From a virus: 32,808 nucleotides of DNA. Position 1 is the first letter of the stretch, and each line of letters opens with the position of its first letter. The notes under the pieces were generated by a model that saw nothing but the letters and a program-made list of their open reading frames with translations, was not told where the DNA came from and did not search any database. Location of the stretch: positions 1 to 32,808 of the IMG/VR virus record IMGVR_UViG_3300017734_000037; one strand, 5' to 3'. This document shows positions 131 to 24,263 of this stretch, one piece after another. The translations under genes were made by a program, and so were the position numbers.

Positions 131-3100
131 TTACTTAACGCTACTCTCGAAGTAATTTCTTTCTGACTCCCTTACGGCGTTCTCTCTAATGTAATCTATT
201 ATAGCCTGTCTTGTTAGCGGCGTATTATTTGTATACCTTCCATAAACATCGCTATAGTTAACACTCTTACCCTCCTTGTTGAACTCTTTGTTCCACTCAT
301 CAGGATACATCTCAAACATTATAATTTCCTCCATGAGGCTATACTTCGAGTTTCTTCCCGAATTGTAGGTCATTACATCGTTTATCGCATCGGGTCCACT
401 TACAAAGTAGCTATCCTTGATTACATTCTTAGATAGAGTTGGTTGAGGTGCTTCGAAATCTTCAACAACCTCTTCTTGCTTTGGCGGTCTTATTTCTGAT
501 TCAAAGAACCTGTCTCTTATTTCATCTAATTCACTTTGTACAATGGTGTTCATTACAGGCCCAGAGACAAGCAGGTTGGCAACGGTTAATCCTGCTTGAG
601 TTTTAATGTCTTTTTCTAGTTGAACCACCTCTGATTGAAGCTCAGATATCTCCTCTTCAGACATATTTTTCGTTTGCTCAGGGTCTGAAAGTTTATTTTC
701 TATTCGCTGTCTTTTAGCCCTCAGCATCATAACATCCTCACCTCTAGACAATAGAGGGTCTCCAATTGGAAGTAAGAGGTCGATAACTTCTTGAGCCACG
801 TTGATTTCCTTGCCTTCAGACATATCGTCTGTTAGTTTTGAGAGCTTAGAGTATAGCACCGAGTCTTTGTATCCACGATACACTTCATTTTCATCTAATA
901 CACCGAGCTTTCTTGATATATACTCCTCTCCTAGAAGCATATTTATACCCATATTCATGGCTTGAGAAGACAATCCACCACCGCCTCCAGTTATAAACTG
1001 GAATAAGTACTGTCCCAATCCTTTCATTCCGTACTCAATGAATGCATCATCTTGGTTTTCTTCCCAAGCCTCTGCTTTGTCTCTATCAACATAGTAACCT
1101 GCTGTTCCAGGTCGAACATCGGCTAGCTCCCTAATGTCTTCAGGTACGTCTCCGTACTCATCAAAAATATAGAACTCACCATTACCGCTAAGCCTTCCCT
1201 TCTTGATGCTTTCTTCTTCATCATCTCCACCCAAGAACCCTGGCAACTGTCGAGCTAGTTCACCCATGACAGCCGTGTAAGCAAAATATCTTACCCCACT
1301 ACCTATTATTGCTCCTGTAGCTTCAGTCTTGCTCATCTCGCCTTCTTTTAACAACGCCTGAATACCCTGAATCGCTGTCTCATGCTCATATCGAGCGAAG
1401 TTTCTCATGAAGCTATTAGCCTTTCTTAGGGTACTGGGTTCTCCTTTCTTGAAGTCCCCCTTGAACGCCTCAATACCTGAAAAAGCAGTTTTAGTTGCAG
1501 ACTGAGCAATAGACCTTCTATCGGCAAATTGAGTGGCCCTCTTGAGTGCGTCTGCATTCTGTCTCATATACTTCTCATCGTTCGATATGATTTTTTCATA
1601 GTCAGGCTTTTTGCCCGTTATACTCTCAAATTTAGAATCGAATGAGCCAGTCCAAACAGGAAGCCCTACTGCCATATCAGGAGTTGACATCACCATATCG
1701 GCGGCCATTGTTGGCAATCCAGTGACTGCGTCAATTATTTCTCCTGTGGTGCTCTTTATACCTAGGGAGCCTGGCCCTGATGGTGCACCTCCTGTTGCTA
1801 TCGCTATATCACTTGGGCCAGTAAGTCTCTGAACTTGAGTAGACCCCAAGTTGCTAAGTATGTTTGCCATCTTACCATCCTTCAATAGCTTGTTTTTTCT
1901 TATAACACCAACTCCTCTAGAGGAAGTCTTTGGAGTTTTAAGACCCGCCATGCCAAGGTTGGATAAAAATTCCGATATTGGTCTTTTGAAGTTCGCAAGT
2001 CTTTGTGAAACGTTAGCTGAGAAAGCGAACCCTAATGCTTTGCCAGCAAAACTATTTGAGCCTTTCTGAGCTCTTAGGACTCTGTTTTGTGTTTGCTCAA
2101 TTGTCTCTTTAAGGCCCATCAGTTTTTTGTACTGCTCGTCTTTTTCATATAGAGACCTGTCATCTTCATACTTATCTCTAATTGCTTGAAGAGATGTCTC
2201 CATCGTTCTGTTAACCTCAGAAATAGATGGAGTCATGTGGTAGTCTACAAGTGTGTTAGCCGCTGCATCGTATGCGGTTAATACAGAATCAAAGTTTATA
2301 GACTTCAATCCACTTGTTCTTTGATATTGAGTGCCACCTCTTGTTCCAATTGTTTGCGCATCGAACTTCCTAACGAAGTCATCTGCACTCTCTTCTTGAC
2401 CTCCCTCGACCTTGTGTCTTGTGTAGTCAACATATGACTCGGCACTGCCTCCTCTATACAAGCTTGCAGCAGATAGAGAATATGGAGAAAGCTCACTATT
2501 TACTTCAGATATAATATCAAAAGCTTTGATTTCGTTTTCAGAAATAGCCCCATCTTTTTTCATGGCGTCTAATCCCTCCTCAAAGCTTACACCCTCAAAG
2601 TACTTTAGCTTGTCTTTTACTCTTTTTAGAATCTCAGCTTCTTTAGGGTCAACCTTAGGGTCGTTTATTCTTTCGTCTATCCACTCTGCGGCTTCAAAAA
2701 CTTTGCTATCCCTCATGCCTGGATTCATCTCCCACTCCCTTTGCAGCTCTAGGGCTTTTACTAAGAACCTAGATTCTCGCACCCTGTCTGCACTTCTAGT
2801 TCTAACACCCTTACCCTTTAATCCCTTAAAGTCTCCAAGAAGGTTACTTGCTTCTTGAAGTTTTGATTGGAACTTGTTTAGGTCAGCTTCGTAATTCTCA
2901 AAGCTAGAGTCTAGCTTACCCCATGTTGCATTATATACTGAGCTGTCATTGAAATTTCCTAGAAGCCTATCAGTAGCTATTTTAGGATTCAGCCTTAACA
3001 TTTGATTGTATTGGCTTTTTTTGCCTGAGCTAAACTTCCTAACGCCAAGTCCTCTAATTCTTGAGCCAAGATTTAATATTACGTCAGAAACACTAGTCTT

Positions 3101-6100
3101 GCCGCTCGTTTTGTTTAGTATATCCCTAGATGCCCTGTTGGCTTTTATGTCTCTTGCCAATCTATAGGCGTTGTGAGTTATAAACCCATTTTGAGCGTTA
3201 GTTAAAACATCTACAAGAAGCGCCTGCTTTTTTAACGGAAGGGCATCAAAGTCCTCTTTTGACATTGTCTGTAGGTCTACAAATACATCTCTTGAGTCCT
3301 TGTTTGGTATGCGGTCAATTACATCCTGATTGATATTGTCTGGAATCCTAGCCACTCCTGTAGATGGAACATCCATTTCGTAGAAGCCAAGTAGAGGAGC
3401 TGCTTTATCAAAATACATCGCACTCATTTCAGCCTTTTCCTCAGGGCTCATTTCGCTTTCTTCCTTTTTAGACTCGGACAACTCCTCCTCTACCTCTGAA
3501 ATATTGCTCAATATAGATTCAACCTGTCTTATCATAGACTCCCTATCACCAAGATTAATTTCTCCTTTTCTCTGAGCTAACCTTTCTGCTATTTTTATCT
3601 GTCTATCTAAGAATGTATGAGTTATATCATCTCTTGATACGCTTATCTCCGTTCCATCCTTAAGCTTTAAAGCAACTCCGTCGGCATCTGACACGATGAC
3701 CTCTGCATCAGCCCCATCGTAGAAAATCGTCTCCCCTGATATTAGTGGAGCCTCTTCCATTGATAAATCTGAAGTTGGTATATTGAATACCTGATTAAGC
3801 AATGAAGATACTAAGGGGTCTGCTCCGAGCTTATTGTTTTTAGATATGTTCTTTCTAGCCTTACTTATAGTTTCACGAGCAGCCTTAATCTTCTGATTGA
3901 ACTTCTTATCAGATATCATCTTATCAATCTTAGCCTCAGCCTTTGCCGCCTGAGCCTCGTTTGTGAAATCTGTAGTGGTTAATATTCTAAGTAAAGACCT
4001 TGTTTGAGCGTTAGAAAGCATTCGAGGTAATGAGAGGGTAGCGTCCTTAAGTAGCTCTATTGCAGCCACTCCCGCCTCTCTGGTGGCCTTTCTGCCAGCT
4101 CTACCTGCTCTTTGCTCTGCCCTGTATTGGTCTTTTAAAGCCTTGAATTGGTCAACTAAAACCTTTCCTTTATTCTGGTTGATAATCTTGGCCGACTCCA
4201 TCTCCACTCTAGCCCTAGCATCTGCATTGGTCATGTCAGTCCTGGCGATAAGGTCGTATATTCTTTTTACTTGAACGGGCGTTAGGTAAATGCCGTCCTC
4301 TTTAAACTGCTCATTGATTTTGGCAATCATATCTCGCTCAGCCTTCTGCTGTTCACCTACAGCCAACTTACCCGCCTTCTCCTGAATCTCTAGCTCTCGC
4401 TTCATCTGTTGATACGAGTCAATAACTATCTGCGTACCACTCATTTTTTCTGGTCGACCCTGGGCCTCAGTCAAGCTGACACCCATTTCGTTTTTGACCA
4501 TATCTATGATTTGGCCTTTAGTTTCTGAGTTTCCCTTCCGATACGCTCTTGTGCCTCTAGCATACGCCAATGCATTCACATACTGCTGCTCCTCCAAAGT
4601 GCCGCCCGTCTCAATGGCTTTCTTTTCGTCCCACCTACCTTTTGTTTTCTCGATAACCTCTCTAATCTCTGATTGAATTCTTGAGATAGGAGCTCTCTTG
4701 TCTGATTGGCGAACAATATTTTTTTCAGGCTCTCTGCCCTCTATGCCAGCCTCTAATTCTTCGACCCTAGCATCAACAATGGCTTTCATTTCTATCTGAG
4801 CCTGCATGTCTGCTTGCGTATCAACGTTGGATTGAACGCCATACTGGTCAATACGAATAGGTGAGCCCATCTGCTCAAGCGAATCATTGATAGTGCTGAC
4901 TAGGTCTGCATCAACCTTGTCGTTTTTATTGACGTATTGCTTGTAAAGGTCTATGGCTACCTTAGGCTCAGATAGAGTGATAGCCTCTTTATATTCTTCA
5001 TAGGTGACATCTTCACCAGCCTTCACCCGCTCTACAATGTTGTCTATATCCTCGTTTTTGGCGGTCATCGCCTGGGATATGACTTCATCTGATTGTGCAG
5101 ATTGAACCATAGACTTTAGCTCTGACAGGTCTCTGTCGCCAAGATATTCTTCTACGGATTTTCCTTCAAACTCTGCGCTTCGCTCTATCGCTTGGATGAG
5201 CGCCTGATGAAACTCTGCCCCACCTTGTCCTTGCTCAACGGCAGCTCTCTCAGCCTCTGATATAAGTTCTTGCCTTCTTTCTTTGCCGACGTACCTTGAT
5301 TCGACTGCTCTGTTTGTTGATTCTTCATATTCTATATTTTTTTCGTCTAACTTTGCTTCCAAGTTAATAAACTTTTGCTCGAATTCAGCATCTTGACCCA
5401 TAGAAAAATCCAAAACAGTTATTTCTCCTGTAGATTGGTTATATGTAAAGTCAAATATATCACTATCTCTTAGTGCATCTAAGACGTCTTGAGCGGAATC
5501 GGGAGACGTTTTAATTGATAGCTCATTAAAAACACTCTCTCCGTCTGGGTCTGCATCTGTATATTGACCAGCAATAGTGGCTTCTTGAACCTCAGGAGAA
5601 TTCGCACCTAAAACGGCAGCAAGCTTTTCGACATCATCAAGCGTTTGATTACCATCAACCTGAACAAGGAAAGAAACCTCTTGAATCTTGTCACCGTTCT
5701 CATGTACAAAGCCGCCTATACCTTCCTCTAAGGATACGATATCCATACCCATTGAGGCCGCATTGTTCTTAATGGTTTCAATCGCTTGCTTGTACTCATC
5801 GGTCTGTCTTAGAGCATCTGCGTCTTCAACGGTGTTTATTGTTGTGCTGAAAAAAGGAGCTACGTTTATCTTAATAGGCCCTCTTTCAATTTGTGGAGCC
5901 TCCTCTTCTGTTGTGGCCTCACTAGGGGCAAGCGTAACAAATTCGGTGAATTCATCTTCATCAAAGATATAATCTTGGCTTACACGCTGAGAAGAACCCA
6001 TATCTGAGTAAGCCTTGTTGATTATTGTTGCGTAAGAATTTGCATCAGCAAGCGCCAATCCGATACCCTTGATTCTAATAACTTCATTGTATACTTGCTC

Positions 6101-9100
6101 AGCAGATTGAGGGTCACCTTCAGAGGCAAGAGTTTTTATCAATAAATCTACTTCGTCGTAATCGAGAGCCATTTCCCCGTCATTCAAGTATTTCATTTTA
6201 ACCTCAAAACCTGCCTTAGCCCTTTCAGATTTCTCAAGGCTCTCACGACGAAAAGCATTAAAGTTTTCTTTAGAAACAATGTATTGCTTCTTGCCTAATC
6301 TAAGTGGCCCGCTTCTTTTAACGGTATAATCGAGACCCTCTGGTGGGACTTCATTAAACACGTAAGACCCATCTTGCTGCCTATTCGCATTGTCTAGAGC
6401 CCTTCTAATGTTATACTCCGACTCACTAATGTCTAAATCTTTCTGAGCACCTAAGTCGTCGTCAAGCTGTGCGGCCATAGCCATGCTTCGTTCTCCTTCC
6501 ATAGTTACCACCTGCCCCACTGGCTTGCCAGTAGCAACATCACCAGCCATTGCCTTAATAAGAGATATAGCATCCTCGTCTGTGTTGACCTCGTTTATCA
6601 ATCCAAACTTAGATGCCAACTTATTAAAGAAGTTTGCTGACTTGTTCGTTACTGACTCAGTATTAGTGTTAGCTGAAACAATACCAAAGAACTGAGATAC
6701 CGCCTCCTTGCTTATATCGCCAGACTCATACTGAGACACAAACGATTCTAATTGAGCCTTAGTATCTGCATCGACATCGCTCATAATGTCGTTAGCAAGC
6801 TCAACCATGTCTACCTTGACCGCTTGGTCATTATTCATAGAGTTAAATACTACCGCCTCGAATACCTCGTGGCCTACAGTAGTCTTGTCTGCCCTAGCGG
6901 CATTAATATGGATTACATTGAACTCTGGGTCAAAGGCTCCTTTCGCCTTTATGCCCGTAGCAGCAATAAATGAACCCTCATTAGGGTGAATCTTAAATTT
7001 AACCTCAGGAAAGCTTTTCGAAAGCGATGTTGCCGCTGCCTCCACCTGAGCATCAAATCCAAGTAACTGATTTTCATCAGCCTTTGTCTTTATATCTAAG
7101 TCAGTGACTTGGTCGATATACCTCAGAGGGTCACCTATTTCTATGGTAGCCTTTCCGAATATTGTAGCCTTCGCTTTTTGGTCAGCCAAAACATTAGCCG
7201 ACGCATTGTCTTTGCCTGAGATGTATACCAAGTCTCCGTTGTTATACCCGCTCTCTAGGTAGTCAAACATCTGCTCTTTACTTACAACCTCTCCATTGAT
7301 AACATAGTCATTGTCCTTGATGGTTTCTTGATGTTTCTTATTCACACTCATCAATCCCTCTATTTGCCCATTGACATCTTCTAAATCTTTTTCATATCCC
7401 TCAGGCTTGTTTTCCTCAAGGAACAATCTCTTGTTGTCTAGAATTAAAAATGAGCCTAAGGCCTCAGGGTTCATGTCAATGCCATTTAGCTTTGCCATAG
7501 ACCGATACACCTGCCTGTTGGCATTAACTAGTTTAACGGCTTGGTCTAGGTTAACAATGCCATTCTTAGTGTAAAGCTTAACCAATGAGCTGAATTCATA
7601 TGGATTGTTTGCCATCATCATAGCAAGCGCACGATTATCGGCTAGGTCAACATTGTTACTACCATTGGTTGCCTTAGACATCAATCCTCCAGACAACAAA
7701 ATAGTGGCGTTCTCTATGTTGCCCTCTACAGTCTGAAAAGAAGATACACTTTGGCCTATATTACTACTGTACTCAAGACCTGAAAAAGCCCTTCCCATAT
7801 CAAGGAAAAGGGGCTCTAATAGTCTCTCCTCAACTAATTCAGAGGTAGCAGCCCCAACGGGTCCAACTCCGAACGCTTTACCTATACTCAGTCTTTCAAT
7901 AGATGGCATGAACCTGTTTGCAACACCTATGGATGTAGCATATATTGCTTTACTAAGCATTTGTTGTGCAAAAGACTCATCCCTGTTCAAGTCGTTCAGT
8001 GACATTACGAACGAAGGGATAGCTAGTTGCGTTATTTGGGAAGCGGCAGGAGACAAGAATTTGGCTGCCCTTGGTAAAATATAACCTACGCTCTTTGACG
8101 CCCCCATAAAGAAGAATAAGCTTGCCGTGGTGTTTTGTATAGTGTTTGTAATCGTACCTTCATACCCTGTCGTCCCCTCAGTAGGGTCTACCATTGTATG
8201 CGACAACATAACATTACCTGAGGCGTCGCTGAATGCCAATGGGTTACCATTTAGTGACACATAGTCGCCTTGCTTTGTATACTTAATGTTTGCAGGGGCC
8301 ATATCCCTTACATTAAAGAAGCTGTTGTTTACGCCTATTGCGTTCCTATAATTAAACAAGGTGGCTTTGTCGTCGGTAAAAGAAAAGAACCTGTATACAT
8401 TATTTATGGGGTCTACAAGATTGTTTATAGTCCTTTCTGCCAACACGTCAAACCCGCCAGGAGAGCCGCCTAGAACCTCATTTCCCGTCACAGGGTATGG
8501 GTTGTTCTTAAATGCACGTTTAAATTGCCTTAAAGTATTGTTGTCCATCTCTGGATAAGTCTCCTCTAAAAACTTTACGTAATTATCCTCGTTAACCTCC
8601 GCATTACCATCAAGGAATGCTAGCTTAGAAAAATGAAACGTTGATGTGAATGTAGCCTGTCTAAACACCTTAGAGGCATCTTTATTTTCAAGGATACCAT
8701 CTATAAGTGCAGGTGTATAGTTTAACCTTCGATAAAACATTTCATCCTCAGCTATAGAATTTACAAGTGCTCTCTGAAGGTCTAGCTTCTCGGCACTCAT
8801 GGTATTACCAAAATCATCCAACATTGGTGTTCCATCTTCTAGCGTGTAAACCTCTCCTAGGTCAATCACACTAATGGCCTCTAATAACTTTTTATAGTAG
8901 TCAGTTACAAATATTCTAGCAGCTAACTCTTCGTTAAAGTCAGCAGTAGAGTCTGCGAGCATTTGTTGGTTTTTAGCGCCTTGAGGGCCGTCAGTTAAAA
9001 AGGGAAGATATTCATCAATCATCCCGTAAATACCAAACAAATCTTTCTTCCTTGCACTCTTACCAACCTCAACCCAATCTGTCCCTTTAAACTCCTCCAC

Positions 9101-10786
9101 AAAGGCGTTATACGCATCTGTGCCAGACATGTTTCGAGCCTCGTTAGGGTCCATGCCTCTTTTTATTAAGAAAGACTCTACGTCTTGCCTGAATGGCTCT
9201 GTAAAGCCTGTACCTGCGTTTTCAAGCAGGAACTGAGCCTTGTCCCTTGGGTCTTCATAGTCAGATGTAATTCCGTTTATTACCTCAAAAGCGTTAGAAA
9301 ACTCAAGTTCGTTTCTTAGAAGTCCGTATGCTGTTGCTTCATCAAAAAAGGCGTCATCAGACATCCCCCTCACCGCATCCATCAGCTGTGTACCGTCAAC
9401 CCCAAAAAGAGAAACTAAGTTTAAATAGTCTTCAATCTTTTTACTAGTTTCTTTTAGGGCCCTTTTCTCCTTCCTATCAAAGCCTTCCAAGGCTAACTCT
9501 CTAGTAGCATTCTCCTTTAGAATGGATTGTTGAGCCTCAGCAAGCGGAATCTGCTTGTCCATATCTTTTGAGCTCATGAATGTTATAGACCCCTGCGACG
9601 GTGTATATGCAATGTAAGAATCCTCCCCATCCATAAGCTCCTCTATCGCAGAAACCTCCTCAGGATTCTCAATTAAGGATTTTGATTCACGACCTTCCAT
9701 CCCCATATGAGAAACTCTTACTGAAGTAAGTATCTTTTTCTTAGCTCCTTCGTCTAATTTGTTAAAGTCCTCTGATGAAATATATAGCGTCTCTCCTTCG
9801 GTTTCCCACGGGGCATCATTAGAAATATCACTAGACACAAAATACTGCATAGCACCTCCAGATACAGCATCAATCCTAGCCCTTTGATTAAAGAAATCAA
9901 CGCCTGACGTACCTATACCCTCTACAATGTTATTGGCAAGCCTTTGGGCTTTCATTCCATTTTCAAATAGATATTTGCCAGCTAAAAATGTATTTGAACC
10001 CAAGCTGTATAACAAAGGGTTACTTGCAACCACTTCATCTGTTTCTGGGTCCCTTGTATAATATTCGCTCGAAACCCTTCCCTCAAAAGACACAGGAACA
10101 TCATATGAGCGAATCATAGGGCTTACTAGATTGCCCTGAGTAAACCTAGGCTGGTCAGAGCCTGGGTAATATTGAATAAGCGGAGATGTGCCTACCTCGC
10201 CATCAAAAAAAGCCGTTGATGGTTCTACTTGGAAATTACCCCCTTCGTCTTGATAGAAGCCAAACCTAGGCATGGGATTATACTGTGTAAGGAGGTTTAT
10301 TTGAGCTAGATTTTTGTCTAATCCAGTAGTTGCTTGCTCAAAATCCCTTTTGTACCTTTCCTGAAATGAATTGAATGCCGCTAGATTAGGGAATCCCTTG
10401 CCATAAAAAATATCATTAAACTCTTGCTCCCTGTTGTTGATGTTTTCATTGAAATGAATCATCTCGGGAGTGTTTATTAGGTCAAAAACGCCCCTAGCAA
10501 TGCCAAACGCTACCTTGTCCGTATCGACAACCTCTGGTTCTTCATCAAGCCCTGCCTTCCATCTTTGATATGCATTAGCCTTAAGCTGAGTATCCCTGAA
10601 CCTTGTTATGGACCTTAATCTATCAAGGGCAGGAGAGCCGCTAAATCCTAAAAAAATAGGCCTCGCAGGAGCCTCCCGAGGCTCCTCTTGGGGCTCCTCT
10701 TGAGTGGTCTCTACTTGTTGCTCTTCTTGGTTCGACCCCTCCTCTCCTTCCCCAGGAATATTATTTAAGTTGTTTTCTTCAATCAT
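131..10786 (-). CDS. Giant virion/ejection protein (3551 aa) with zincin-like site
   Basis: This is a single 3551-residue ORF, last of the structural block. Residues 1-42 are acidic and Gln/Glu-rich. Hydrophobic segments lie near 885-930 and 3165-3195. A segment around residues 1290-1315 matches the zincin metallopeptidases found in large phage polyvalent proteins: a predicted strand (NVIHIN), then TTVGHEVFEAVV. The active-site motif is H1306-E-V-F-E1310, that is HExxE instead of HExxH. Residues of roughly 2000-2400 are long, charged and coiled-coil-like. The region near 2918-2945 (SANVSQRLANF) and 3040-3060 (PVWTGSFDSKF) resembles C-terminal parts of phage large polyvalent proteins. The size recalls the N4 virion RNA polymerase and the giant crAss-like cargo proteins, but I found neither a T7-type polymerase motif nor DxDGD. 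ATG at 10786 overlaps the upstream TGA as ATGA. Likely role: packaged and injected with the DNA (inference from position and size). Confidence 0.82.
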   Translation of the reverse strand: MIEENNLNNIPGEGEEGSNQEEQQVETTQEEPQEEPREAPARPIFLGFSGSPALDRLRSITRFRDTQLKANAYQRWKAGLDEEPEVVDTDKVAFGIARGVFDLINTPEMIHFNENINNREQEFNDIFYGKGFPNLAAFNSFQERYKRDFEQATTGLDKNLAQINLLTQYNPMPRFGFYQDEGGNFQVEPSTAFFDGEVGTSPLIQYYPGSDQPRFTQGNLVSPMIRSYDVPVSFEGRVSSEYYTRDPETDEVVASNPLLYSLGSNTFLAGKYLFENGMKAQRLANNIVEGIGTSGVDFFNQRARIDAVSGGAMQYFVSSDISNDAPWETEGETLYISSEDFNKLDEGAKKKILTSVRVSHMGMEGRESKSLIENPEEVSAIEELMDGEDSYIAYTPSQGSITFMSSKDMDKQIPLAEAQQSILKENATRELALEGFDRKEKRALKETSKKIEDYLNLVSLFGVDGTQLMDAVRGMSDDAFFDEATAYGLLRNELEFSNAFEVINGITSDYEDPRDKAQFLLENAGTGFTEPFRQDVESFLIKRGMDPNEARNMSGTDAYNAFVEEFKGTDWVEVGKSARKKDLFGIYGMIDEYLPFLTDGPQGAKNQQMLADSTADFNEELAARIFVTDYYKKLLEAISVIDLGEVYTLEDGTPMLDDFGNTMSAEKLDLQRALVNSIAEDEMFYRRLNYTPALIDGILENKDASKVFRQATFTSTFHFSKLAFLDGNAEVNEDNYVKFLEETYPEMDNNTLRQFKRAFKNNPYPVTGNEVLGGSPGGFDVLAERTINNLVDPINNVYRFFSFTDDKATLFNYRNAIGVNNSFFNVRDMAPANIKYTKQGDYVSLNGNPLAFSDASGNVMLSHTMVDPTEGTTGYEGTITNTIQNTTASLFFFMGASKSVGYILPRAAKFLSPAASQITQLAIPSFVMSLNDLNRDESFAQQMLSKAIYATSIGVANRFMPSIERLSIGKAFGVGPVGAATSELVEERLLEPLFLDMGRAFSGLEYSSNIGQSVSSFQTVEGNIENATILLSGGLMSKATNGSNNVDLADNRALAMMMANNPYEFSSLVKLYTKNGIVNLDQAVKLVNANRQVYRSMAKLNGIDMNPEALGSFLILDNKRLFLEENKPEGYEKDLEDVNGQIEGLMSVNKKHQETIKDNDYVINGEVVSKEQMFDYLESGYNNGDLVYISGKDNASANVLADQKAKATIFGKATIEIGDPLRYIDQVTDLDIKTKADENQLLGFDAQVEAAATSLSKSFPEVKFKIHPNEGSFIAATGIKAKGAFDPEFNVIHINAARADKTTVGHEVFEAVVFNSMNNDQAVKVDMVELANDIMSDVDADTKAQLESFVSQYESGDISKEAVSQFFGIVSANTNTESVTNKSANFFNKLASKFGLINEVNTDEDAISLIKAMAGDVATGKPVGQVVTMEGERSMAMAAQLDDDLGAQKDLDISESEYNIRRALDNANRQQDGSYVFNEVPPEGLDYTVKRSGPLRLGKKQYIVSKENFNAFRRESLEKSERAKAGFEVKMKYLNDGEMALDYDEVDLLIKTLASEGDPQSAEQVYNEVIRIKGIGLALADANSYATIINKAYSDMGSSQRVSQDYIFDEDEFTEFVTLAPSEATTEEEAPQIERGPIKINVAPFFSTTINTVEDADALRQTDEYKQAIETIKNNAASMGMDIVSLEEGIGGFVHENGDKIQEVSFLVQVDGNQTLDDVEKLAAVLGANSPEVQEATIAGQYTDADPDGESVFNELSIKTSPDSAQDVLDALRDSDIFDFTYNQSTGEITVLDFSMGQDAEFEQKFINLEAKLDEKNIEYEESTNRAVESRYVGKERRQELISEAERAAVEQGQGGAEFHQALIQAIERSAEFEGKSVEEYLGDRDLSELKSMVQSAQSDEVISQAMTAKNEDIDNIVERVKAGEDVTYEEYKEAITLSEPKVAIDLYKQYVNKNDKVDADLVSTINDSLEQMGSPIRIDQYGVQSNVDTQADMQAQIEMKAIVDARVEELEAGIEGREPEKNIVRQSDKRAPISRIQSEIREVIEKTKGRWDEKKAIETGGTLEEQQYVNALAYARGTRAYRKGNSETKGQIIDMVKNEMGVSLTEAQGRPEKMSGTQIVIDSYQQMKRELEIQEKAGKLAVGEQQKAERDMIAKINEQFKEDGIYLTPVQVKRIYDLIARTDMTNADARARVEMESAKIINQNKGKVLVDQFKALKDQYRAEQRAGRAGRKATREAGVAAIELLKDATLSLPRMLSNAQTRSLLRILTTTDFTNEAQAAKAEAKIDKMISDKKFNQKIKAARETISKARKNISKNNKLGADPLVSSLLNQVFNIPTSDLSMEEAPLISGETIFYDGADAEVIVSDADGVALKLKDGTEISVSRDDITHTFLDRQIKIAERLAQRKGEINLGDRESMIRQVESILSNISEVEEELSESKKEESEMSPEEKAEMSAMYFDKAAPLLGFYEMDVPSTGVARIPDNINQDVIDRIPNKDSRDVFVDLQTMSKEDFDALPLKKQALLVDVLTNAQNGFITHNAYRLARDIKANRASRDILNKTSGKTSVSDVILNLGSRIRGLGVRKFSSGKKSQYNQMLRLNPKIATDRLLGNFNDSSVYNATWGKLDSSFENYEADLNKFQSKLQEASNLLGDFKGLKGKGVRTRSADRVRESRFLVKALELQREWEMNPGMRDSKVFEAAEWIDERINDPKVDPKEAEILKRVKDKLKYFEGVSFEEGLDAMKKDGAISENEIKAFDIISEVNSELSPYSLSAASLYRGGSAESYVDYTRHKVEGGQEESADDFVRKFDAQTIGTRGGTQYQRTSGLKSINFDSVLTAYDAAANTLVDYHMTPSISEVNRTMETSLQAIRDKYEDDRSLYEKDEQYKKLMGLKETIEQTQNRVLRAQKGSNSFAGKALGFAFSANVSQRLANFKRPISEFLSNLGMAGLKTPKTSSRGVGVIRKNKLLKDGKMANILSNLGSTQVQRLTGPSDIAIATGGAPSGPGSLGIKSTTGEIIDAVTGLPTMAADMVMSTPDMAVGLPVWTGSFDSKFESITGKKPDYEKIISNDEKYMRQNADALKRATQFADRRSIAQSATKTAFSGIEAFKGDFKKGEPSTLRKANSFMRNFARYEHETAIQGIQALLKEGEMSKTEATGAIIGSGVRYFAYTAVMGELARQLPGFLGGDDEEESIKKGRLSGNGEFYIFDEYGDVPEDIRELADVRPGTAGYYVDRDKAEAWEENQDDAFIEYGMKGLGQYLFQFITGGGGGLSSQAMNMGINMLLGEEYISRKLGVLDENEVYRGYKDSVLYSKLSKLTDDMSEGKEINVAQEVIDLLLPIGDPLLSRGEDVMMLRAKRQRIENKLSDPEQTKNMSEEEISELQSEVVQLEKDIKTQAGLTVANLLVSGPVMNTIVQSELDEIRDRFFESEIRPPKQEEVVEDFEAPQPTLSKNVIKDSYFVSGPDAINDVMTYNSGRNSKYSLMEEIIMFEMYPDEWNKEFNKEGKSVNYSDVYGRYTNNTPLTRQAIIDYIRENAVRESERNYFESSVK

Positions 10787-12537
10787 TTCAAGAATTCATT
10801 GTAATCTTCCAATATGATGTTGTCTAGCGAGGCCTTGTTACTCCTGTCATCAAATAGTGAGGAAATTGTTTTATTCCCTATTTTGATTGTCCACTCCGCA
10901 CTTGCCTTATCAAAATTAACCTCAAGCGTTCCACCAAGCTGTTTTGCTAACTGACCATACGCTTGACTCAAGATTTCTTTTCTTTTGGCTTCTATGCTAG
11001 CGCTGTCTTTTGATGATTTGTTACTTGAGAACGCAATATCATAACCTAATTCAGAGGGTGTATTCTGATAATCGCTTATTTGTGCCACTGTTCCGCCGTA
11101 AGGTTTTATTGAAAACCCATCAATTCCCGTAGGCATGCTGCTGCTCTCTTCCCCACTTTTTTCAGGAGGAATACCCATTATGCTTACAGCGTTGGGCGTC
11201 ATTTGAGCATTACCGAATCCTCCACTATCGAATTTTTCACCAGCTAAACTTAAATTGCCACTAGCCGCTTGACCTGCTGCCAAAAGCCATTGGCGATATC
11301 CTTGAGGAGTATCAATAGGGTATGACTGACCCTGAACAGTCCCTGTAGGAGCACCACTAGAGTTATCAAATCCAAGCTCAAATCCAGCTGCCTGTGCGGC
11401 CAACTGAATCGCCCCTTGGTCTCCTGTGGAGTAGGCTATCTCCATTTGTCTGTAGAGCTCTGCTAAATCTTTTTTATCTCTTCCTTCAGGGTCTCTTGGT
11501 TCTTGAGTAAACTTAGTTACCTCTTCTGTCTGAACATCTATTGCATCCGACAAAAATGTAACAGCCTTAGCCCTAACATCTTGCCAACCCTTACTATCCA
11601 TAGCTGGAACGAGATTACCCCCTTGGTTTATGAACACAAGCGCATTGGGGTCGTCAATTTTCGACTCGTCCGTGGTGTACTTATCAAAAATATCTTCTTG
11701 AAGATGGTCAGAAGCCAATGATTGTAGCTTGGAGGGGCTGTCAACTATTGAGCTAATAAAGTCTGTTTTCGCAGGCTGATAAGCCTCGTTAAACTTCTCA
11801 CTAGTTGTGTTTAATCTAATATTCCCCTGAGTTGCCTTCCCTACCTCATCAACAAATCCTGTTACATCAGAAAAGTAGTCATATGCGGTAAACATCTGCT
11901 GACTCATATTTATCAGATTACCCATCGTCTGAAGACTGCGTGTCTCATAAGGCATAGTGGGGTCTCCAGTGGTAAATACAACTCCGCCTGTCCCATCTTT
12001 ACCTATAACCAACTCTGTGTTTCCGAAGTCCATATATCGACCTGTAAGGGTTGTAAGCCACTCATCGCCACGACTCAAGATAGAGCCTCCATCTATTGGG
12101 TTCCCTTCTCCATCAACACCCATTCTCATTTGCTCTCGCTTAGTAACAGCCTCATTGTATTGAGTGGTGTAGTTCTTAAAGTTTGTTATTGTGCCCTCTG
12201 TGTTCGAGAGGTTTCTCTTAAACTGAGCAACTGAAATCTGTCCACTCTTTAGAAGTTTCTCTTGAGTCAGTAGGTATTGCCTCGCATTGTTGGCGCCCTC
12301 AAACATCCAGTTATTGAAGTCAACGTCCATCCCAACGTCTAAGTTGTCCATATTGGCAAGCGTCGTAGATATGTTCTTATCTATCTCTGCCTTTGCCGCC
12401 ATTCTACGGTCACGCTCTAGATTAATAAAGTCTACGAACTTACCCGTAATCTCTGACCAATCTACTACGTCCTTACTTACATCTCTAGGAGCCCTAGTGA
12501 AGAAGTCTTGCTGCTGAAAATCTTGGTTTATTGCCAC
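10783..12537 (-). CDS. Putative internal/ejection virion protein (584 aa)
   Basis: I recognise no family. The 584-residue protein is hydrophilic and mostly helical-looking in its first half, with an N-terminal charged segment (ERDRRMAAKAEIDK near 40-53). From about 380 it is Gly/Ser/Gln-rich, with Ala/Gly-rich stretches such as LLAAGQAASGNL. There is no signal peptide and no clear membrane helix. The start is GTG at 12537-12535; its first base is the last base of the preceding gene's TAG. The stop TGA overlaps the ATG of the giant protein. It is the middle member of a three-gene unit (274, 584, 3551 aa) with its own promoter-like box upstream. Size order and position parallel T7 gp14-gp15-gp16, so an internal-core or ejection-channel role is plausible but inferred. 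Confidence 0.75.
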   Translation of the reverse strand: MAINQDFQQQDFFTRAPRDVSKDVVDWSEITGKFVDFINLERDRRMAAKAEIDKNISTTLANMDNLDVGMDVDFNNWMFEGANNARQYLLTQEKLLKSGQISVAQFKRNLSNTEGTITNFKNYTTQYNEAVTKREQMRMGVDGEGNPIDGGSILSRGDEWLTTLTGRYMDFGNTELVIGKDGTGGVVFTTGDPTMPYETRSLQTMGNLINMSQQMFTAYDYFSDVTGFVDEVGKATQGNIRLNTTSEKFNEAYQPAKTDFISSIVDSPSKLQSLASDHLQEDIFDKYTTDESKIDDPNALVFINQGGNLVPAMDSKGWQDVRAKAVTFLSDAIDVQTEEVTKFTQEPRDPEGRDKKDLAELYRQMEIAYSTGDQGAIQLAAQAAGFELGFDNSSGAPTGTVQGQSYPIDTPQGYRQWLLAAGQAASGNLSLAGEKFDSGGFGNAQMTPNAVSIMGIPPEKSGEESSSMPTGIDGFSIKPYGGTVAQISDYQNTPSELGYDIAFSSNKSSKDSASIEAKRKEILSQAYGQLAKQLGGTLEVNFDKASAEWTIKIGNKTISSLFDDRSNKASLDNIILEDYNEFLK

Positions 12538-13361
12538 TATCCTTCGTTTGTTGATGCCTGCGATATAAATCGGTTGTTATACGCCTCTGTTCCATATAGA
12601 GGGAAATCTGGCGCTAAAGCATCTGCCGCCCCAAATAATCCCCCCACACCTGCTGCTAGGTTTTGCTGCCTAGATGCTCTTAATCCTTCTGCTCGTTCTC
12701 TTAAGAACTGAGATTCGCCACCATATATACCTGCCATCTGCTGTGCCACCTGCTGTTTCTCTTGTATTACAGCCTCATCTCTAGCCTGTATCTGCTTGGC
12801 TTGTTCAGCCGCTAATCCAAACTGCTGTGCCGCTACTCCACCTTGAATGGCTTGTGCGGTTGCCTGAGCAGCCCTTGGGCCTGCGGCTTGCGCCGCATCA
12901 ATTTGCTGCGCTGACGCCACTTGAGTAGCTCTCATCGCCTCGTCAAAGGCTGTGTTGTCGATTCTTAACTCTTCTGATTCGAGCTTGCCAATCTCGGATA
13001 TGGCCTTGTTCATCATCCTCTTGGATTTCATCTCATCCTGCTGAGCCTGCCTCTTTGCTTTTATTGCTTGGGCAAAATTTACGATTCCCCCTATAACAGC
13101 GGACGCAGCACCAATAAAGGGCATTGCCGTCCCTACAGCACCACCAATCTTGCCTAGTAGGCCTAGAGCTTTGCCTGCGCCTCCTAAAGCTTGACCTGCG
13201 CCACCACTACCGATGTTGCTTGTAAAACCAGTTAATGCCCCTCCAAATTTTTGATTATAAAGAAGAGGGTTTGTATTTTTTAAATAATCCTGATAGAGAT
13301 TGCCACTCATCCCAGATTGGGGCGCATTGAAGTTTCCAAATTTGTTAAACCCGTTTGCCAT
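12537..13361 (-). CDS. Gly-rich internal virion protein with membrane helix (274 aa)
   Basis: From ATG at 13361 (MANGFNKFGNF) this is 274 residues. An in-frame GTG at 13379 would add six residues, but it touches the TATATTTG box at 13386-13379 and probably would not be transcribed, so I chose the ATG. Residues about 40-74 are Gly-rich with GGAG/GGA repeats. Residues about 72-100 (AVGTAMPFIGAASAVIGGIV) form a small-residue hydrophobic helix. This is followed by a basic stretch and a long Ala/Gln-rich, coiled-coil-like helix to about residue 215. This layout resembles small ejected pore proteins of podoviruses (T7 gp14-like, P22 gp7-like); the comparison is structural, not a sequence match. It is first in the ejection trio, and its stop overlaps the GTG of the 584-aa gene. 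Confidence 0.75.
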   Translation of the reverse strand: MANGFNKFGNFNAPQSGMSGNLYQDYLKNTNPLLYNQKFGGALTGFTSNIGSGGAGQALGGAGKALGLLGKIGGAVGTAMPFIGAASAVIGGIVNFAQAIKAKRQAQQDEMKSKRMMNKAISEIGKLESEELRIDNTAFDEAMRATQVASAQQIDAAQAAGPRAAQATAQAIQGGVAAQQFGLAAEQAKQIQARDEAVIQEKQQVAQQMAGIYGGESQFLRERAEGLRASRQQNLAAGVGGLFGAADALAPDFPLYGTEAYNNRFISQASTNEG

Positions 13362-13378
13362 AGAAAAAGTATATTTCA

Positions 13379-13386
13379 CAAATATA
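13379..13386 (-). promoter_or_regulatory. Bacteroidota-type -7 box TATATTTG before the ejection trio
   Basis: On the minus strand the short gap after the 289-aa gene's TAG (13396-13394) holds TATATTTG, a match to the Bacteroidota -7 consensus TAnnTTTG. The ATG of the 274-aa gene is 18 nt further on. I see no TTG at the usual -33 spacing. The same octamer recurs in two other gene-start gaps, which supports function. Confidence 0.55.
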
Positions 13387-13393
13387 CTAAAAA

Positions 13394-14263
13394 CTACGGC
13401 TTACTCTCCATATAGTCGGCCTCTACAGCGTATACTTCAGCCCTAGATGTTGTGTTTAAACTTAGGTCTATCTCCATAATGTGACCTGTAATACCAGCAG
13501 ACTCATTCTCACTAGGCCTTGCAGCAACGGATATGTAGTCTCCAGGCGCAGGGGGAGTGGGTGGATTAGGGACTGTTAGGTCAATAAATAACTCTATTGC
13601 CACCTTGTCTTTTCTGTTAATTATTTTAGTGATATTACCTACAGCAACCCTGTTTACATATACCAAATCATTAACCCTTATGGATGTATTTATTGGGAAT
13701 CCTAACTCATATTGAATAACAGTGTTGGATGGTGAGCTTTCAGCAGTGTATCCAATAGATGACATAAGGCCTGTAGGCGTGCCTCCAAAGTAACTTACTG
13801 AAGCGGGAGCCGTACCTACACCCTTAAAGAACCTAACGTTATCACCATACCCAACCTCTTTTATATACGCAAAGTGTGCGTTCTCTTTTTTAACAAAGGT
13901 CACTGTAGTGCCTGAGTCCATATCAGTCTGTAGGCTAGTGTCAAGGTTAGAAGACGCCTGAACCTCTGCCAAAGCCCTAATGGCCTTAAATACCTTAGAT
14001 GTTATGGGAGTCCCATTGAAACAAGTCTTTACCCTTGGCGTTACATATGGCAAGATTGATGAGTCTCCATCTATAGACTCTTCCATATAAAATGTAGCTC
14101 TCCCGTTTGTGTCTGTATTGTGAATATTTAGGTTGCCATTCTTAAACGAAAAAAAATCGCTATTCATCCCAGTCATATACTCAGGATAGAACGAGTAAAA
14201 GGAAACCCATCCGCCCACATTGTCATCCGATGATGTTGGTGTATATGTAACTGTATATGCCAT
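13394..14263 (-). CDS. Short-tail structural protein (289 aa)
   Basis: The N-terminal region VGGWVSFYSFYPEYMTGM, followed by FFSFKNGNLNIHNTD (residues about 16-50), is a pattern I associate with tail proteins of crAss-like and other Bacteroidota podoviruses, where a 'W-SF-SF-PE-M' segment precedes 'F-SFKNGNLY-HN'. The rest is beta-rich. Around residues 195-250, VNDLVYVN and GDYISVA suggest a small barrel resembling the recurring module of neighbouring genes. A proline-rich stretch (PNPPTPPAPG) sits inside it. The start codon overlaps the amidase stop as TAATG, so the two are translationally linked. It is likely part of the tail, between tail fibre/hub and internal proteins; exact position in the virion is unknown. 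Confidence 0.68.
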   Translation of the reverse strand: MAYTVTYTPTSSDDNVGGWVSFYSFYPEYMTGMNSDFFSFKNGNLNIHNTDTNGRATFYMEESIDGDSSILPYVTPRVKTCFNGTPITSKVFKAIRALAEVQASSNLDTSLQTDMDSGTTVTFVKKENAHFAYIKEVGYGDNVRFFKGVGTAPASVSYFGGTPTGLMSSIGYTAESSPSNTVIQYELGFPINTSIRVNDLVYVNRVAVGNITKIINRKDKVAIELFIDLTVPNPPTPPAPGDYISVAARPSENESAGITGHIMEIDLSLNTTSRAEVYAVEADYMESKP

Positions 14264-15141
14264 TATAGTTCTGTTAACATGATTAGTAATTCTTCCTGAG
14301 GGAACATATCACTCTTACCCTTGTTGGTGTTAGAATGCGATAGAAGGCCCCTGACGTGTCCGTAGTAGGCTTTCTCGTTCCATTCGAAGGCATCAGCACC
14401 TTTTTCTTTTATAAGGGCAGGGAGGCCTTCTCTGACATCTATATTATCTCTGTCTGCAATAAACAATATTAGTTTACGCAAAGACTCAATCTGAGCGTCA
14501 GAGTATCTATGCCAATTCTTATACCCCTTGAATTCCTTTGACAACTCGACCCTATGTTCTTCGTGAACGGTGTGCCCAGCGTATGTCTTGCCATTCTTTA
14601 GGTATCCGAAGTTACACACCTCTATACCTACACTATTTGTATGCATCTCCTGAAATCCGTTCCTTCCTAAATGCCAAGCATATCCCCCATCAGGAATACA
14701 CTTAACAATCTCACCGTCGTACTTGAACTCATCGTTGAATATAGATGGGCCACCCAAAACAAACTCGGTTGCAATTCTTCCTCTGCTATCTCTCCCCCAA
14801 TGGTCAACGGTTCGATATGGGTTATGCCATCCTGCTGTGTGGTGAAGGAACAGGTACTCCTTTGGGGTGGGGCCCCTAAAGTACTCACGCTTTGGAAGCG
14901 CATGGTAGTTAATAACAATTCCGTGTTGACTGTCTAGTGACTCTTGAATGTCTGTAGTCAGTCCAAACAACTCAGCCCAAGTCTTAGGACCTACTATGCC
15001 ATCTACTTCTAAATGGCTTTCAACCTGAAACCTCATTACAGCAGACTCTGTTATAGGGCCAAAAATCCCATCAGCCTCAATACCTAGTTCTTTTTGAATA
15101 GCCTTTACGTCTTCGCCTTGATGTCCTTTTTTTATTAGCAT
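14263..15141 (-). CDS. N-acetylmuramoyl-L-alanine amidase with peptidoglycan-binding domain
   Basis: This 292-residue enzyme should cleave the bond between N-acetylmuramic acid and L-alanine in peptidoglycan. Residues about 4-60 form a PG_binding_1 domain with two repeats (GIEADGIFGPITESAV and EVDGIVGPKTWAELF). Residues about 95-280 are an Amidase_2 (T7 lysozyme-like) fold: LFLHHTAGWH gives H100, AWHLG gives H157, GIEVCNFGY gives E174, and a C-terminal HSNTNKGKSDMF gives H269, K276 and D278. H100, H269 and D278 are the likely zinc ligands (D replaces the Cys of T7). There is no signal peptide. It overlaps the 2027-aa gene by 7 nt (ATGCTAA) and lies inside the tail operon with no holin beside it, so it may be a virion-associated lysin or the endolysin. 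Confidence 0.93.
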   Translation of the reverse strand: MLIKKGHQGEDVKAIQKELGIEADGIFGPITESAVMRFQVESHLEVDGIVGPKTWAELFGLTTDIQESLDSQHGIVINYHALPKREYFRGPTPKEYLFLHHTAGWHNPYRTVDHWGRDSRGRIATEFVLGGPSIFNDEFKYDGEIVKCIPDGGYAWHLGRNGFQEMHTNSVGIEVCNFGYLKNGKTYAGHTVHEEHRVELSKEFKGYKNWHRYSDAQIESLRKLILFIADRDNIDVREGLPALIKEKGADAFEWNEKAYYGHVRGLLSHSNTNKGKSDMFPQEELLIMLTEL

Positions 15142-23555: not shown

Positions 23556-23563
23556 CAAATATA
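23556..23563 (-). promoter_or_regulatory. -7 box TATATTTG before the 112-aa gene
   Basis: TATATTTG on the minus strand lies immediately after the TAG of the 205-aa gene (23566-23564) and 33 nt before the ATG of the 112-aa gene. It matches TAnnTTTG. No TTG is seen at the expected -33 spacing, which overlaps the end of the upstream gene. Confidence 0.55.
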
Positions 23564-24185: not shown

Positions 24186-24193
24186 CAAATATA
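24186..24193 (-). promoter_or_regulatory. -7 box TATATTTG adjacent to the ATG of the 205-aa gene
   Basis: On the minus strand TATATTTG is followed by CGTC and then ATG (24181). In Bacteroidota the transcription start lies a few bases after this box, so transcripts would begin at or within a base or two of the ATG. It follows directly on the T-run of the terminator at 24224-24202. Confidence 0.55.
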
Positions 24194-24201
24194 AGTAAAA
24201 T

Positions 24202-24224
24202 AAAAAAGAGCCCCGAAGGGCTCT
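24202..24224 (-). terminator. Rho-independent terminator with C(UUCG)G loop
   Basis: The minus-strand stem AGAGCCC / GGGCTCT (7 bp) closes a TTCG tetraloop with a C-G pair, the very stable cUUCGg type. A T-run (TTTTTATTTT) follows. It lies about 54 nt after the stop of the 242-aa gene and just before the -7 box of the next gene. Confidence 0.92.
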
Positions 24225-24255
24225 CTAAACAATGATTATGAATTATCTATCGAAT

Positions 24256-24263
24256 CAAATATA
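24256..24263 (-). promoter_or_regulatory. Extra TATATTTG upstream of the terminator
   Basis: The same octamer occurs again on the minus strand 15 nt after the 242-aa gene's stop. A transcript from here would run into the terminator after about 45-50 nt. It may be a second promoter, the source of a very short RNA, or a chance match in an AT-rich gap. Confidence 0.3.

Follow-up and report, generated by a model that had tools for sequence, protein, structure and literature searches.

A conserved ejection-type gene trio in a short-tailed phage contig, with a giant mosaic protein carrying a candidate SAM lyase-like module

The viral contig IMGVR_UViG_3300017734_000037 (32.8 kb; the whole stretch, 32,808 nucleotides, is called the window below) carries, at the end of its structural module, three genes named here A, B and C, the last of which encodes a giant protein of 3551 residues. 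The three products are very probably internal virion proteins ejected at infection, with C as modular cargo. C is a mosaic with exchangeable modules, and one of these, module V, is on balance probably an S-adenosylmethionine (SAM) lyase-like enzyme. The most far-reaching reading proposed here, to which we give a probability of roughly 0.4, is that the phage injects a SAM lyase built into its giant ejection protein, so that SAM would be lowered before or during DNA entry. The phage is short-tailed, of a kind with Bacteroidota-type hosts, and kin to Elemovirus, Pervagoviridae and Pachyviridae. Coordinates are reported in Table 1.

Results

A, B and C form a conserved cassette

A sequence-only reading of the window had described genes of 274, 584 and 3551 residues, overlapped stop to start, as an ejection apparatus. 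All three open reading frames (ORFs) are present, on the minus strand, which that reading did not give, with overlaps of 1 nucleotide (nt) between A and B and 4 nt between B and C. A was taken from the ATG at 13361; the mechanical ORF begins instead at a GTG, at 13379.

An exact-pattern query with C gave no matches in viral contigs, and the nine diverse sequences aligned for the C core had diverged too far to support a pattern search. Loci (L numbers below) were retrieved instead with an alignment of the nozzle gene (80 loci, out of at least 600 matching stretches); 80 more were gathered with module Z of C, and isolates were added. Profile searches yielded 125 members for the A family and 131 for the B family, and removal of near-identical proteins left a non-redundant set of 82 A proteins. 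B was the next gene after A in 75 of 80 non-redundant loci. The large C, scored as an ORF of 1000 residues or more on the same strand, was found in 62 of the 67 testable ones; in four of the other five the contig ends within the ORF. Lengths in relatives ranged from 97 to 334 residues for A (median 269), from 369 to 761 for B (median 558) and from 1479 to 3859 for C (48 non-redundant complete proteins). C is commonly the last gene before a strand switch. The Gly-rich hydrophobic stretch noticed earlier in the first gene lies at residues 72-100 of A and is rich in Gly and Ala (maximum Kyte-Doolittle hydropathy (KD) 1.75); a strongly hydrophobic 19-mer (KD at least 1.3) was present in 68 of 82 A proteins and in none of 75 B proteins. 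The trio is a conserved cassette. A separate 87-residue gene of phi13:2 (L007, 21119-21382) matches the first 53 residues of the C protein of Gundel_1 (L008) with 58% identity, so that C is split or fused in different phages.

The leading -7 box, TATATTTG, is found where it had been reported, 18-25 nt before the start of A. Of 62 homologous loci, 15 carry a TAnnTTTG box ahead of A, compared with 7.4% of random 120-nt stretches; ahead of B and C the box was scored in 5 and 6 of 79 homologous loci, respectively. The promoter region of L002 and L011, the closest relatives, is almost the same. These counts argue for a real promoter before A in the window clade, and among the isolates in phi38:1, phi13:2 and Gundel_1, for example, though it is not universal. 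More TAnnTTTG boxes were seen in short intergenic gaps of the window, at 24186-24263 and 23556-23563. Near 24200-24240 a terminator-like hairpin, GAGAGCCCTTCGGGGCTCTTTTTT, stands between two boxes, the second box following directly after it.

Homologues of the trio are recorded as virion proteins

Database records for gp099, gp100 and gp101 of Cellulophaga phage phi40:1 (Pervagoviridae), and for gp120, gp121 and gp123 of Cellulophaga phage phi18:3 (Pachyviridae), say that these proteins are structural, from experimental tandem mass spectrometry (MS/MS) proteomics. This virion evidence consists of record notes on homologues, not on the window's phage. A and B of both phages, or near-identical relatives, are included in the A and B profiles, and C was linked to its homologues by chains of pairwise local matches and by position. 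Absence from virions had been named earlier as a finding that would speak against an ejection role; the records from two families report the opposite.

The ejection apparatus proposed from the sequence is well supported by the conserved cassette, a position and size order like those of T7, the promoter, and the MS/MS record of homologues in two families; its mechanical steps are set out conditionally in the Discussion, by analogy. Taken alone, the trio is an ordinary, though extreme, member of the known ejection-trio kind.

Comparison with T7, N4, DEV and crAss001

The position and size order of the trio match those of the N4, DEV and T7 trios (PMC10925440, PMC8954989). In T7 the nozzle gene gp12 is followed by promoter phi13 and by gp13-14-15-16, and the order in the window is the same, which bears out the earlier likening of the rise in size to gp14-15-16: genes small, medium and large after the nozzle, an upstream promoter, virion location (known for homologues) and a hydrophobic segment in the smallest protein (PMC8954989). 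The window departs from T7 in the size of C, 1479-3859 residues in its family against 609-1337 for gp16 (PMC8954989), in having its peptidoglycan hydrolase as a separate gene, and in the lack of sequence homology found to the T7 trio; T7-like trios are themselves marked by strong sequence variation (PMC8954989). Order and sizes are nearly identical in the Schitoviridae, where N4 gp52-gp51-gp50 and DEV gp73-gp72-gp71 form ejection operons (PMC10925440, PMC12633501), with the differences that the window C has no polymerase signature and that the fold of B is unmatched beyond one helix. The cargo proteins gp45, gp46 and gp47 of crAss001 lie directly after the muzzle, to whose C-domain the window has a weak match, and gp45, which has a transmembrane helix, spans tail and capsid (PMC10172136); crAss001 differs in that its gp47, gp49 and gp50 are associated with RNA polymerase (RNAP) and in that A, B and C have no sequence match there.

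At the level of profiles, the best match of A in the whole PDB was DEV gp73 (8vxq, E 0.043). Against 58 proteins of T7, N4, DEV and crAss001, DEV gp73 ranked first, crAss001 gp45 third and T7 gp14 fourth, none of them significant alone. B and the C core had no match by hhalign to proteins of these four phages. Several results weigh on the other side. The AF2 model of B (pLDDT 77.6) found no PDB match at E<0.8, gp15-like folds being absent from those listed, which does not exclude them; by VIA its matches were confined to short helices, DEV gp72 aligning over a single helix of 40 residues; and B and C showed no sequence kinship with gp15, gp16 or the virion RNA polymerase (vRNAP). Since the matches of A are not significant and B is without a PDB match, homology of the trio to the known ejection proteins is not proven, whereas a function like theirs is well supported.

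C is a mosaic with exchangeable modules

Whole-length searches of PHROG and Pfam with C, and with B, gave no usable match. Compared with the near relative L002, identity along C was 22-46% over most of residues 1-1000, 52-88% over 1050-1500, near zero at 1650-1900 and 58-86% at 1900-2300. The N-terminal region had profile matches outside the window only in L002; BLAST also found it in L098, covering residues 1-45 and those from 868 onward. Module X was present in L098 and L110 and absent from L109. The C-terminal core is common to Elemovirus and to distant viral contigs, and was also found in L089, L091, L097, L099, L101 and L102; other C-terminal groups join it at the profile level (E 1e-4 to 1e-10). 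C is a mosaic. Its middle, which had been left unexplained, is now accounted for in part as swappable modules.

The cargo slot is diverse, and varied domains occur in other C proteins: DUF7178, LPD38 and DUF6861 in those of L095, L092 and L090, and GNAT, ParB-N and nucleotidyltransferase matches in unidentified members. DUF3293, noted in the Elemovirus record, had no Pfam match in the window.

C resembles the phage polyvalent proteins (Iyer et al. 2017, PMC5512222) in its very large size, its several disparate enzyme-like modules, here zincin-like and SAM lyase-like, and its place beside late genes. One C relative, outside the core group, has LPD38 at its C-terminus, and module V matches polyvalent proteins structurally. 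It differs in that the window's C has neither LPD38 nor any other LPD, Pfam or curated domain above cut-off, and in that a SAM lyase is unmentioned in the main text of PMC5512222.

Module V carries the active-site pattern of phage SAM lyases

Module V is absent from the nearest relatives (L002/L110, L098 and L109) and present in the distant L090 and L102, at 30-35% identity, and in L171 (IMGVR_UViG_3300020401_000002), where it lies before Z, the reverse of the window order. All V copies in viral contigs are within very large ORFs, none standing alone. V was also seen in contigs binned as Bacteroidota, L220 (from a Cytophagales metagenome-assembled genome (MAG)) and L222 (from a Bacteroidia MAG), which are probably phage or prophage sequence.

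The AF2 model of V consists of two successive beta-alpha-beta-beta-alpha-beta units, with a pLDDT of about 90 over most of the domain. It aligned by VIA with phage SAM lyases (6zm9, Z 7.6, 3.4 Å, 114 of 129 residues; also 6znb, 7ock and 8bb1). Giant phage proteins make up most of the significant matches in the viral structure library BFVD, and two of these bear the name 'large polyvalent protein associated domain-containing'. The small single-domain matches include proteins of 142 residues from Salmonella phage Spp16 and of 134 residues from Cronobacter phage Dev-CD-23823; the former is a homologue of the T3 SAMase (E 2e-10), and Dev-CD-23823 gp4, equal in length to the latter, belongs to the SAM lyase family by Pfam (E 1.3e-31). 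For the V of L171, the best Pfam model was PF23780 (E 0.0035).

The key residues of the SAM lyase Svi3-3 are Gly56, Tyr58, Glu69, Ser71, Gln104 and Glu105, and its E69Q mutant is about 4500-fold less active (PMC7877911). When these positions were mapped by spacing and secondary structure onto 21 V domains, Gly52, Tyr/Phe54, Glu64 and Gln95 (Gly56, Tyr58, Glu69 and Gln104 of Svi3-3) were found in all 21, and Ser66 and an acidic residue at 96 (Ser71 and Glu105) in 20. On the predicted secondary structure, G-x-Y closes strand 2, strand 3 bears E-x-S, and Q-E comes just ahead of strand 4. The same pattern is present in the T3, Dev and Spp16 SAM lyases. The motif 'SVES' of T3 gp0.3 was considered as the site of the catalytic Glu and dropped, this residue being placed at E68 (PMC7877911). 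V shares with the phage SAM lyases (T3 gp0.3, Svi3-3; PF23780) a predicted ferredoxin-like fold and six active-site positions. It differs from them in being a module of a virion protein, whereas they are stand-alone proteins of 125-152 residues, that of T3 being made early in infection, and in having a second ferredoxin-like repeat and no significant sequence similarity.

A number of results count against a SAM lyase. The VIA matches of V are generic ferredoxin-like folds among which SAM lyases do not stand above the others, ferredoxin domains of RND porters scoring as high (Z 7-8.6). The window V has Phe at the Tyr58 position, a change (Y58F) that costs Svi3-3 fivefold in activity (PMC7877911), and it had no convincing Pfam family. 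When the V profile was tested, Dev gp4 came first against 1000 shuffled sequences but 6th among 913 unrelated ORFs, and the T3 SAMase was not ranked at all. SAM lyases are trimers, whereas V sits inside C, and the MS/MS records concern distant homologues whose C proteins have no V. Searches with hhalign gave no significant match of V to T3. Pfam detected PF23780 in the V of L171 alone, and there below cut-off; the window V had no match to it, and the best V member reached 17.7 bits for a gathering cut-off of 28. By sequence profiles alone, the kinship of V with SAM lyases is not proven.

It may be that the cassette is ejected as proposed, with V not a SAM lyase but a ligand-binding module of the generic ferredoxin-like (ACT/PII-like) type. 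We regard this alternative as a serious one, as ferredoxin-like folds from many families score alike and the profile test did not single out SAM lyases; it leaves aside, however, the active-site pattern placed alike on the secondary structure, and the presence of SAM lyases among the small viral matches of V. A SAM lyase-like enzyme is the identity of V that we consider somewhat probable.

Module Z, and an unlikely purely structural role for C

Z was found in 51 of 71 unique C proteins, many of the loci having been retrieved by Z itself. Its alignment shows a zinc motif of the AHEVFHA type, and HExxH is kept in 46 of the 51 (36 HEVFH, 6 HEAFH and 4 others). The window has HEVFE, thus lacking the HExxH of zincin metallopeptidases, and this form is confined to the window clade, that is the window and the three close relatives L109, L110 and L098. 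With Glu in place of the second zinc histidine, peptidase activity of Z is doubtful in this clade. At the profile level the metalloprotease IrrE matches weakly (E 0.08), over a stretch that spans the motif. Polyvalent-protein zincins have been proposed to process the polypeptide (PMC5512222). Zincin-like HEFGHxW motifs, unrelated to Z, were seen in five other C proteins.

The degraded zinc motif, and the large part of C for which no family could be detected, would also suit a core protein that serves only as structure or scaffold and whose modules are filler, with no enzymatic role in the host. This we find unlikely: whole modules are swapped among close relatives, key residues of V are kept in 21 of 21 domains, and HExxH persists in nearly all other Z domains.

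C is very improbably a polymerase

The sequence-only reading saw no polymerase motifs in C and named a recognisable polymerase as what would change its role; at the sequence level none was detected, by a search of PDB sequences (no match at E<=1, none to RNAP) or by motif (no D-F/Y-D-x-D or NADFDGD type). Proteins of N4 and crAss001, two phage types that it had suggested as search targets, had no hhalign match to B or the C core. An injected RNAP of the N4/DEV or crAss type, diverged beyond recognition, would fit a size and gene order equal to those of N4 gp50-51-52 and DEV gp71-72-73, but is very improbable given these searches, the absence of the catalytic Asp motif from the window's C, the host-type -7 boxes, a complete relative (MW202828) without any annotated RNAP, and C proteins of down to 1479 residues in relatives.

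Genome context

All large genes of the window are on the minus strand. In that orientation the order starts with a terminase (PHROG 6681), a portal (PHROG 6547) and a 356-residue scaffold-like protein, followed by a 483-residue probable major capsid protein (PHROG 13704), small head proteins and two ring or connector-like proteins; it ends with the nozzle/muzzle-like protein, the amidase, a 289-residue protein and the trio, which closes this T7-like structural module. The pair formed by the 289-residue protein and its nozzle-like paralogue recurs in relatives. PADLOC gave no match. GroEL and/or GroES chaperonins of their own are encoded by the relatives L005/L006 (phi38:1), L003 and L193 (MW202828).

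Table 1. Position of the trio, the regions of C and neighbouring features in the window
Feature	Position	Strand	Description
Gene A, 274 residues from ATG	12537-13361	minus	Small ejection-type protein, Gly/Ala-rich hydrophobic segment
Gene B, 584 residues, GTG start	10783-12537	minus	Medium-sized ejection-type protein; long helices at N-terminus, alpha/beta beyond
Gene C, 3551 residues	131-10786	minus	Giant virion protein built of modules; final gene of structural module
-7 box of Bacteroidota-type promoter	13379-13386	minus	Consensus TAnnTTTG, leads trio
C N-terminal region, residues 1-1230	7097-10786	minus	Lineage-specific
C module Z, residues 1247-1426	6509-7048	minus	Zincin-metallopeptidase-like; motif HEVFE at 6857-6871 (C residues 1306-1310)
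C module V, residues 1640-1884	5135-5869	minus	Tandem ferredoxin-like; SAM lyase-like active-site pattern at 5582-5716
C module X, residues 1908-2300	3887-5065	minus	Found only in window clade
C C-terminal core, residues 2388-3192	1211-3625	minus	Common to Elemovirus and distant viral contigs
289-residue protein	13394-14263	minus	Paralogous to C-terminal part of nozzle; PF25729 (crassvirus muzzle C-domain) matched weakly, E 6.4e-5, below cut-off
N-acetylmuramoyl-L-alanine amidase, peptidoglycan-binding	14263-15141	minus	PF01471, PF01510; beside trio
Tail nozzle/muzzle-like virion protein, 2027 residues	15135-21218	minus	PHROG 14478, E 1e-201

Discussion

After attachment, A, B and C would most likely exit the head through the tail, ahead of the DNA. 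By analogy with T7, N4 and DEV, A may insert in the outer membrane and form a pore, B may build the periplasmic tunnel part of the conduit, and C may reach the cytoplasm, with the conserved core at its C-terminus as the anchor. The amidase, a separate protein, may assist in opening the peptidoglycan. C would then double as injected cargo, its exchangeable middle modules acting in the host cytoplasm, where V would lower SAM and so blunt SAM-dependent restriction or BREX as the DNA arrives.

SAM is required by Type I restriction and by BREX. The need of BREX for SAM is also stated in the literature, and work on SAM-AMP lyases shows that SAM chemistry is contested in CRISPR defence too. If a SAM lyase is injected, as tentatively proposed here, Type I/III restriction, BREX or SAM-AMP CRISPR signalling could be blunted without phage gene expression, and the module slot might be exchanged between phages according to host defences.

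Ejection trios themselves are known; in the literature examined we found no description of an ejection protein that reaches 3000 to 3900 residues, has visibly swapped modules and is not a polymerase. What is new here is the mosaic cargo and the likely SAM lyase-like module. C would be a storage place of host-directed cargo in a widespread group of Bacteroidota-type phages (at least 600 viral-contig matches by the nozzle gene). Should V prove to be a SAM lyase, the phage would bring its means of anti-restriction, SAM depletion, in the virion itself and ahead of any transcription, unlike T3 with its early gene.

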